From the IMG/VR virus record IMGVR_UViG_3300030333_007629, positions 1 to 25,297 of that record: 25,297 nucleotides of DNA; one strand, written 5' to 3'. This DNA is from a virus. This document shows, piece after piece, positions 13,589-15,666 of the stretch (position 1 is its first letter; each line of letters begins with the position of its first letter). The notes under the pieces are model-generated. The model was not told the DNA's origin and made no database searches. It worked only from the letters and a program-made list of their open reading frames with translations. Position numbers and translations under genes: made by a program.

Positions 13589-14887
13589 ATGTCAAATCTT
13601 CCAATGAAGCGTGAATCATTTTGGACTCGAATTGTTAAAGCCCTTTATAAAGTAGAAAATAAACCAGAAAGGCCAGCTCATGGTGCAAATTGGGCAAAAC
13701 CTCAAGGGCAAAATAATCCATTTCCAGCCCGCATATCTATGTCAGCATTTGCTTCTCATGGTTATGTTTTTGCAGCAGTATCAAGAGCCTCTCAAGATCT
13801 TGCTGCATTACCTATCAAATTAATTCAAGGAAAAGGAAAATCTGCCAAAATAATTGACGAACATCCTTTTCTAGATTTAATGGATCAGCCGTCCAGCTAT
13901 GTTGATGGATTTTCTTTGCGCGAGCAACTGGTTGTAGATTTAATGCTAACTGGTGGTTGTTATATTTTGCTAGCTGGATCAAATGAAGCACCTGCGAGTT
14001 TATTTCGTTTGCATCCGGAGCAAACCAAAATAATTACTGATCCAATTTTAGGAATTAAAGGATTTGAGTACAGTGATTCAGGCAGGACCGTTGAATATCC
14101 AATTGATCGAGTTGTATTTGCTCAAAATGCTTCATGGGCTGCTGGTGTGGATGCATTATATGGACTAGGTGGAATTCAGCCGCTTGCCAAAGAGATAAGC
14201 GCGGATCTTAGTGCGCAAAAGCTCGCAAGCGATGCGGCTAAAAAAGGGCGGCCTGATATCCTGATTTCTCCGGCAGATGAAGCCGATATTTGGGACTACG
14301 AGCAAAGAAGAGCAATTCTAGACGCTTATCGTGGGATGAGCAATGAAGGTGGTGCAATGGTGTTAAGTGGCCAGGTCAAAATAGATCCTTTGCAAGTTAC
14401 GCCCCGGGATCTAGAATTTCAAGCTGTTCGTACCTATGCAAGAGAAGCAATTTCCGCGGTCTTTGGCGTCCCTCCGTCTGTTCTCGGAGCTGGCGATCTA
14501 AACTATGCGGTTTCACGACAGCAAGCATCTAACTATTGGGAGGTGCAAACTAAGAGAGGCAAAAAGTTGTCTTATTTGTTAACGCAAATTGCACGAAAAT
14601 TTGATCGCTCTTTTAGAGTTGAAATTGATTATTCTGGTGTTGAAGCGTTGCAAGCTGTTAGAGATGGTCAAATCGATAGGATTGAGAAACACGTCAGAAT
14701 AGGAATGCCTATAGCTGAGGCTTATGCTTATGAAGGCCTGGAAGATGCTCCCGTTATTCCTGAAAGTGAACGGGAGGATCCTGCAGATGATGTTGGTGAT
14801 GAAGAAGAGCAAAATGTTAGAGCATTAGATGCTTTATTGCAAACTATTTCAAATAATCCTATTGAAAAAAAAAAGATAACGACCTAA
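13589..14887 (+). CDS. portal protein (HK97-type)
   Basis: A 432-residue protein forming the ring through which DNA enters the head and to which the tail attaches. Typical features are the early helix YVFAAVSRASQDLAALPIKL, then HPFLDLMDQP, the helical stretch LREQLVVDLMLTGGCYILLA, FRLHPEQ and, near the end, AREAISAVFGVPPSVLGAGD. AGGAGGT lies just before ATG 13589, which is preferred over the GTG two codons earlier. The end reads EKKKITT and stops at 14887, just after an A10 run. A -1 shift there would join it to the MuF-type domain. The C-terminal residues are acidic and low in complexity. Confidence 0.93.
   Translation: MSNLPMKRESFWTRIVKALYKVENKPERPAHGANWAKPQGQNNPFPARISMSAFASHGYVFAAVSRASQDLAALPIKLIQGKGKSAKIIDEHPFLDLMDQPSSYVDGFSLREQLVVDLMLTGGCYILLAGSNEAPASLFRLHPEQTKIITDPILGIKGFEYSDSGRTVEYPIDRVVFAQNASWAAGVDALYGLGGIQPLAKEISADLSAQKLASDAAKKGRPDILISPADEADIWDYEQRRAILDAYRGMSNEGGAMVLSGQVKIDPLQVTPRDLEFQAVRTYAREAISAVFGVPPSVLGAGDLNYAVSRQQASNYWEVQTKRGKKLSYLLTQIARKFDRSFRVEIDYSGVEALQAVRDGQIDRIEKHVRIGMPIAEAYAYEGLEDAPVIPESEREDPADDVGDEEEQNVRALDALLQTISNNPIEKKKITT
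14865..14875 (+). other. A10G slippery run, candidate -1 frameshift site (portal to MuF)
   Basis: Ten A and one G lie four codons before the portal stop. In the portal frame the last seven bases read A AAA AAG (14869-14875), the heptamer that drives -1 frameshifting in E. coli dnaX. The -1 frame is open from here to 15666. Transcript slippage on A10 would give the same fusion. A true A11 with a sequencing error would fuse the genes outright and has to be excluded. Confidence 0.65.
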
Positions 14888-15666
14888 TAAATTGGGAAAA
14901 ATATATTAGCAAAAGTCATGGGCCTGCAGAAAGAAAGCTAGAACGATCTATAGCAAAATATTTAAAATCAGCACAAAAGCGTTATCAAAATAGAATAAAA
15001 GAATACGTCAAAAGTGATAAAAAAGGCTCTTCTTATTTAAAGAAAAATGTAATATCATGGTCTGATGTGCTTGATGTAGGTGATGAGGTTAACCGGATTG
15101 TGTCTGAATTTGGCCGTGATTGGCTAGCGGTTTGGACTATTGAAGGCAATGATCAACTTGATGCAATTTATCAACGGCTAAAAAAAGAGCGACCACTTGA
15201 TCTTGAGTTTGGAGATCGCAAAATTGCTGAATCAATGATTGATCTCTCAGCATTTGAAATAGCCAGCACAACAGCAAAATCTATTAGAAAAATAATTGAG
15301 CAGGGTTTGCTCCAGGGCTTAAGCGTTGATGATATGGCGGAGCTTATTAAGGAGGATACACGGTTTGGATTTAAAAGAGCTCGAACTATTGCCAGAACTG
15401 AATCTACTAAAGCCATAAATTTAGCGGCAGATCAAAGCTTTCAATCGGCAGCTAATGAAGGAATCCCAATTAGAAAACAATGGCTATCATCCCAGGATGA
15501 TAAAGTTAGGGAAACACATAGAGAGCTGGACGGACAGATTGTTGGTGTAAATGAAGAGTTCATAATTCCATCAACGGGTGAAAGAGCACCTTCCCCGGCT
15601 GAGTTTAGTAATCCAGCCGAATCAATAAATTGTCGATGTACAATTATTCCAATTATTGATGACTAA
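14866..15666 (+). CDS. MuF / SPP1 gp7-type head morphogenesis protein, -1 frame extension of the portal
   Basis: An open frame of about 266 codons without an ATG, GTG or TTG before 15067, where a GTG has no ribosome binding site and would remove the N-terminal third. Residues before that GTG (NWEKYISKSHGPAERKLERS ...) read as real protein. The C-terminal half has the SPP1 gp7/MuF pattern: ARTIARTESTKAINLAADQ, then WLSSQDDKVRETHRELDGQ, ending CRCTIIPI, with the conserved RTE, R-x-x-H and C-R-C. Such proteins are minor head components next to the portal and may be injected. The likely product is a portal-MuF fusion made by slippage at the A10 run. Start and mode of expression are inferred. Confidence 0.8.
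   Translation, partial: KKKDNDLINWEKYISKSHGPAERKLERSIAKYLKSAQKRYQNRIKEYVKSDKKGSSYLKKNVISWSDVLDVGDEVNRIVSEFGRDWLAVWTIEGNDQLDAIYQRLKKERPLDLEFGDRKIAESMIDLSAFEIASTTAKSIRKIIEQGLLQGLSVDDMAELIKEDTRFGFKRARTIARTESTKAINLAADQSFQSAANEGIPIRKQWLSSQDDKVRETHRELDGQIVGVNEEFIIPSTGERAPSPAEFSNPAESINCRCTIIPIIDD

Follow-up and report, generated by a model that had tools for sequence, protein, structure and literature searches.

A candidate programmed -1 recoding site at the junction of phage portal and MuF genes

The portal gene of viral record IMGVR_UViG_3300030333_007629 ends in a homopolymer that is probably a programmed -1 recoding site making both a bare portal protein and a portal-MuF fusion, a reading whose probability we put at roughly 0.8. 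The stretch analysed, hereafter the window, comprises 25,297 nucleotides. In the proposed scheme, most decoding of the portal gene would stop at the TAA at 14885 and release a bare portal of 432 residues, and a share would slip by -1 on A_AAA_AAG, within a run of ten adenines (A10), and continue to a portal-MuF protein of 692 residues. Both products would contain the ring-forming part of the portal, so mixed rings could form, and MuF would enter the head tethered to the portal by a flexible linker. In relatives that carry both domains in one frame, the scheme would be reversed, with the zero frame giving portal-MuF and the slip giving the bare portal, as in E. coli dnaX. We infer slippage itself, its rate, its ribosomal nature and the mixed rings from sequence.

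Reading frames and domains at the junction

The portal gene occupies 13589-14887 on the plus strand, and its zero-frame product has 432 amino acids (47.6 kDa). This product matches Phage_portal (PF04860) with an E-value of 4.6e-39 and 134.9 bits, against a curated cutoff of 39.1, as well as PHROG 2662 and PHROG 12; sequence comparison places it among portals of the HK97/RcGTA type. An in-frame GTG at 13583 offers an alternative start, but the ATG at 13589 is the more likely one because AGGAGG lies just upstream of it.

Read directly, the run consists of exactly ten A (14865-14874, plus strand) followed by G, and matching runs occur in relatives. The portal frame crosses it as ATT GAA AAA AAA AAG ATA ACG ACC TAA. 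Within it, A_AAA_AAG (14869-14875) has the X_XXY_YYZ form of a -1 frameshift heptamer in the zero-frame phase, and the portal stop (TAA, 14885-14887) lies four codons past AAG. The MuF frame is closed directly upstream of the run by a TGA (14863-14865) and is open from 14866 to a stop at 15664-15666. Entered by a -1 shift, it adds an extension of 263 codons plus the stop (14875-15666, plus strand; PF04233, E 2.6e-20), in which the Phage_Mu_F domain itself spans 15280-15648 (73.7 bits; curated cutoff 29.6). Between the run and the GTG at 15067-15069, the MuF frame contains no ATG, GTG or TTG, and only the near-cognate codons ATA and ATT occur there. No Shine-Dalgarno-like sequence was found before this GTG, which falls within the conserved fold. 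The initial annotation had described a MuF frame open back to A10, the lack of a usable start before 15067 and a heptamer in the portal frame four codons short of the stop, and direct reading bears it out on each point. Its estimate of about 78 kDa for the fusion agrees with the computed value of 77.2 kDa for the predicted 692-residue protein.

The same annotation held that the part of MuF missing from a GTG-initiated product reads as real protein. That it is real protein follows from conservation, codon pattern and structure prediction taken together. The stretch before GTG 15067 is 55% identical in amino acids to its counterpart in the related locus L002, and nucleotide differences between the two fall on codon positions one, two and three in the numbers 24/14/38. 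Ten invariant MuF residues precede the GTG (W7, P17, E19, Y29, L30, K35, R36, Y37, R40 and W62). In the AlphaFold2 model of MuF (mean pLDDT 87.7), residues 7-44 of the extension (14893-15006, plus strand) are predicted to form one helix, which together with a hairpin precedes residue 65, the residue encoded by GTG 15067. Translation beginning at this codon would thus lose the conserved helix and hairpin, and the start-less N-terminus of MuF is conserved coding sequence that can be reached only via a shift. A search by sequence and by fold found no solved structure resembling MuF.

The domain order agrees with known one-polypeptide proteins. The PHROG 2662 profile (717 positions) contains the portal followed by MuF; the window's portal matches positions 63-410 and its MuF positions 489-707, so that the two halves would be one PHROG 2662-like polypeptide only if the shift occurs. 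The fused relative L008 matches the same profile at 54-708. In the model of the L008 protein, whose overall confidence is modest (pLDDT 70), the slippery site falls in a disordered linker between the domains, at residues 387-438.

An A10 run by itself is not evidence of recoding, since a first-order Markov model of this AT-rich window predicts 1.2 runs of at least ten A per 25 kb, or about one per window of this composition. It is the place of the run and its recurrence in relatives that exceed chance.

Several other features of the window were recorded. A second DNA methylase (N6_N4_Mtase, 12929-13540) lies directly before the portal, and at 6599-8138 a ParB_N-like protein adjoins a cytosine-5 DNA methylase. 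Many small ORFs are preceded by a repeated leader, in which an AT-rich palindrome, CAATATAATATGTTATTATATTG, comes first, then ATATAAGAACAAAACAACAAAGGAGCA, then an ATG. Its copies form three separate clusters, at 4605-6019, 11088-11754 and 15670-16014, within which they are up to 93-100% alike, and they resemble a common cassette that combines promoter and ribosome-binding site. In an ORF of 84 amino acids (11153-11407), an 86-base segment occurs twice with 92% identity, so that LKDQLMGKDIGWNSDEANEAILNE is encoded twice, and 103-base repeats near it start at 11401 and 11669.

Split and fused relatives in two clades

Relatives were gathered first by the portal, which retrieved 31 loci about 73-89% identical from viral contigs, and then by MuF. 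A single-sequence MuF scan of viral contigs gave no match, and the relatives were found with the portal and then with alignments; a scan of genome contigs with the portal alignment also gave no match. Counting was by clusters at 88% nucleotide identity, of which the portal's own clade contains 33. A run of nine to eleven A separates portal and MuF in 25 of these clusters. Three more have only a short A_AAA_AAG or A_AAA_AAT, and each (L008, L075-077 and L107) is fused with an early stop in the -1 frame. The remaining five (L006, L015/016, L017, L032 and L093) have neither. The 28 clusters with a slippery site divide into 8 that are split and 20 that are fused.

In the split genomes (the window, L002, L004, L069/L070, L082/L083, L084-086, L099/L100/L106 and L109), the portal frame ends 3-29 codons beyond a run of A9 or A10, and only the -1 frame, 258-410 codons long, leads to MuF. 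The window's two nearest relatives, L002 and L004, are among them. In 8/8 split clusters with a site, the shift needed is -1, and in none is it +1; as random frame breaks would go both ways, this constancy of direction favours recoding. On the portal tree, the split label requires 4 changes, at least 3 of them forced by well supported branches. L094-097 and L111 are also split by -1, but they have no slippery heptamer and have GTG starts in the overlap, and they were not counted as recoding.

In the fused genomes, one frame encodes both domains, yet most have A9-A11 in between, and in nearly all of these a -1 slip leads to a stop 0-6 codons on. Such a stop lies within five codons in 18/20 fused clusters, against a local background of 18-53%. 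Because the excess is of limited significance (Fisher p 0.03, with relatedness incompletely removed), early -1 stops were rejected as stand-alone proof. The initial annotation had regarded a simple one-frame fusion as grounds for refuting recoding. Such relatives do exist, but most of them keep the run and a -1 stop directly after it, so that the run appears to serve a mixture of products and not just the joining of two domains. Fused relatives also have extra sequence, up to about 390-440 residues, that separates portal from MuF (L009:5267-6420 and counterparts). These inserts are modular, and close relatives differ in which modules they have; the one in L009 has no Pfam or PHROG match and resembles hypothetical proteins of Salinibacter phages at 39% identity.

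A second clade has T runs at the corresponding place. The portals of Geobacillus phage GBK2 and Bacillus phage Silence are 25-27% identical to that of the window and belong to one-frame portal-MuF genes with T9 exactly at the domain junction. Within about 6 kb of each phage, no other stretch of T is seven or longer, and stops in both other frames follow this one directly. The run lies unannotated inside the portal gene of both Silence (KT001912; L117:3673-3681) and GBK2 (KJ159566; L118:3334-3342). Runs of T7-T10 occur at the same place in these two phages and in seven metagenomic genomes that have both domains in reach, and only four other runs of at least seven T are present in the 54 kb of second-clade loci. 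Seven members are fused, with a -1 stop 0-2 codons past the run (GBK2, Silence, L132, L163, L165, L168 and L169), and the combined test for early stops in this clade gives p 0.025, again with relatedness incompletely removed. In L133-135 and L167, which are split, the portal ends three codons past the run and the -1 frame continues into MuF. The -1 split arrangement is thus found in ten clusters across two clades. The -1 shift from portal to MuF put forward in the initial annotation is the only reading that yields the conserved MuF N-terminus, and it recurs in eight clusters of the first clade and two lineages of the second.

Most portal-MuF pairs beyond these clades, like five clusters of the first, have no slippery site of any kind, which speaks against the proposed recoding. 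A genome-contig scan with GBK2 and Silence returned distant, mostly alphaproteobacterial portals with no recognisable MuF adjoining. In Staphylococcus, Alteromonas, Pseudoalteromonas and Marinomonas phages, muf is a separate, overlapping gene with a start of its own, and no slippery site was seen where checked. Three distant fused portals, in an Exiguobacterium plasmid record (L239:2066) and two metagenomic loci (L171:437-461 and L172:2937), have CCCTTTT or CCCAAAT where the domains meet, and the -1 frame stops 0-1 codons after it; this could be chance.

Mechanism of the proposed slippage and alternative explanations

Slippage by the ribosome and slippage by RNA polymerase would give the same two proteins. 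Of these, ribosomal slippage is somewhat favoured, on the constant direction of the shift and on the T7 and A6 sites. Slippage during transcription, in which RNA polymerase would lengthen or shorten its copy of A9-A11 or T9-T10, the way it does in Thermus dnaX and Shigella spa13, is nonetheless a real, if less probable, possibility. Runs of 9-11 identical bases are known to make RNA polymerase slip, and the window's A10, like most runs of its relatives, falls within the range of about nine or more bases. Efficient bacterial -1 sites often carry a stem-loop or Shine-Dalgarno stimulator, which is usual but not obligatory; inspection downstream and upstream of the sites revealed no consistent signal of a 3' stem-loop or an internal Shine-Dalgarno sequence, which, besides counting against the proposed site, suits the polymerase. 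So do the occurrence of the run in all three codon phases across relatives and the stops in both non-zero frames after the T9 runs, an arrangement shared with Thermus dnaX (PMC5009743). Against this, the T7 runs (L132-135) and six-A heptamers (L008 and L075-077) are short for a polymerase and fit ribosomal heptamers, and a polymerase can slip both ways, yet the split genomes always need -1.

The run might also be kept for a reason other than recoding, such as the need for many lysines in the linker, a bend in the DNA or switching of the portal-MuF fusion by phase variation. It does lie in a lysine-rich linker, A and T tracts both bend DNA, and a change in run length would switch products. Codon usage speaks against such reasons. 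Among cluster representatives, AAA encodes the first lysine of the LKKK motif in 87% and the second in 93%, as opposed to 14-47% at conserved lysine columns outside the motif, where AAG is freely used. The third is AAA in 33%, and AAG at this position also completes the slippery heptamer. The leucine codon of the motif ends in A in 73%, compared with 7-53% at other conserved leucine columns. L079/L081 have no run at LKKK but an A10 further on, so the position of the run moves while its presence is kept. Runs of at least nine A number 0.97/kb at the junction, whereas the remainder of the contigs concerned has 0.033/kb, a difference of about 30-fold that is descriptive, as related contigs were counted separately. 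Conservation of the site across relatives thus goes beyond codon usage. Run length is the same in close relatives; among the fused ones, A9+G and A10 differ by a substitution that leaves the frame intact. None of these reasons would account for MuF frames that have no start and always lie at -1, and together they appear unlikely.

Separate translation of MuF from an internal or non-canonical start (GTG 15067, ATT 14905 or ATA 14887), as in SPP1-like muf genes, has a precedent in relatives such as PB15, ctOK67, Pq0 and P12026, whose overlapping muf genes have their own start. It is rather improbable here. GTG 15067 has no Shine-Dalgarno sequence, and a protein begun there would lack the conserved first helix. 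Among the other split genomes that carry a slippery site, none has a well-placed start with a Shine-Dalgarno sequence, and the conserved runs of one-frame relatives would have no explanation. Least probable of all is that portal and MuF form an ordinary one-frame gene here, broken apart by a mistake in sequencing or assembly or by a recent inactivating indel: the one-frame state is the commonest among relatives, indel errors fall in homopolymers and an assembly search found no second copy of the window's own junction of any run length, but the -1 arrangement is shared by the nearest relatives and recurs in ten clusters of two clades, with identical run lengths in independent assemblies of near relatives (L084-086, L099/100/106 and L133-135).

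Known systems and implications

The proposed recoding of the portal-MuF pair has a close parallel in bacterial dnaX (tau/gamma), where one gene gives a long and a short product with a common N-terminus and the default is reversible (PMC5009743). In E. coli dnaX, A_AAA_AAG makes the short product, and the reverse arrangement has been inferred in other bacteria, whereas Thermus dnaX relies on transcriptional slippage (PMC5009743). The genes discussed here differ in being phage structural genes, portal and MuF, and in that dnaX-like stem-loop and Shine-Dalgarno elements were not found at their sites. Lambda G/GT, the A2 and T3 capsid proteins and SPP1 gp17.1* are similar in that a protein is made together with a C-terminally extended form at a ratio set by slippage (PMC5009743, PMC6316719), but they concern a tail chaperone, a major capsid protein or a tail tube, not portal and MuF. 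Ig-like extensions are indifferent to whether they are attached by direct fusion or by a shift (PMC5009743). PHROG 2662, Arthrobacter phage Brynnie ('portal and MuF-like fusion protein'), GBK2 and Silence have the same two domains in one polypeptide, annotated as a portal or a plain fusion without recoding; the fused Arthrobacter portals that were checked have no slippery site, in contrast to GBK2 and Silence with their T9 at the junction. We found no earlier description of portal-MuF recoding in the open-access literature. Recoding of phage structural genes is known; what would be new is recoding with dnaX-like reversibility in the portal/MuF gene pair.

SPP1 (gp6/gp7) and 80alpha (gp42/gp44) also carry a minor capsid protein in the head, but from separate genes and by non-covalent recruitment. 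In SPP1 the portal brings in one to two copies of gp7, and for 80alpha the figure is about two copies of gp44 (PMC5576092, PMC6316719, PMC7290940). These copy numbers bear on the expected rate. That the default and the slip product trade places between genomes points to an efficiency near 50%. Such a value is hard to square with so few MuF copies per capsid, as two MuF on twelve portal subunits would need about 17% fusion, unless efficiency differs between genomes.

We see about an even chance that at least two clades of tailed phages build the portal ring from bare and MuF-bearing isoforms on purpose, with the run setting the ratio and selection keeping the mixture while the default product repeatedly switches between fused and split. 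If so, the portal ring would be chemically asymmetric and would bring tethered MuF modules into the head in limited number; with MuF borne by a share of the portal subunits, its count per head could be limited genetically. Two predictions follow. Heterotypic portal rings should exist, averaged away in structural work by imposed 12-fold symmetry, and GBK2 and Silence, whose annotations each list one portal protein, should make a second, truncated portal. The MuF proteins of many temperate phages carry toxin domains (PMC5576092), and in some of these phages the dose of such MuF per particle could be set by slippage.
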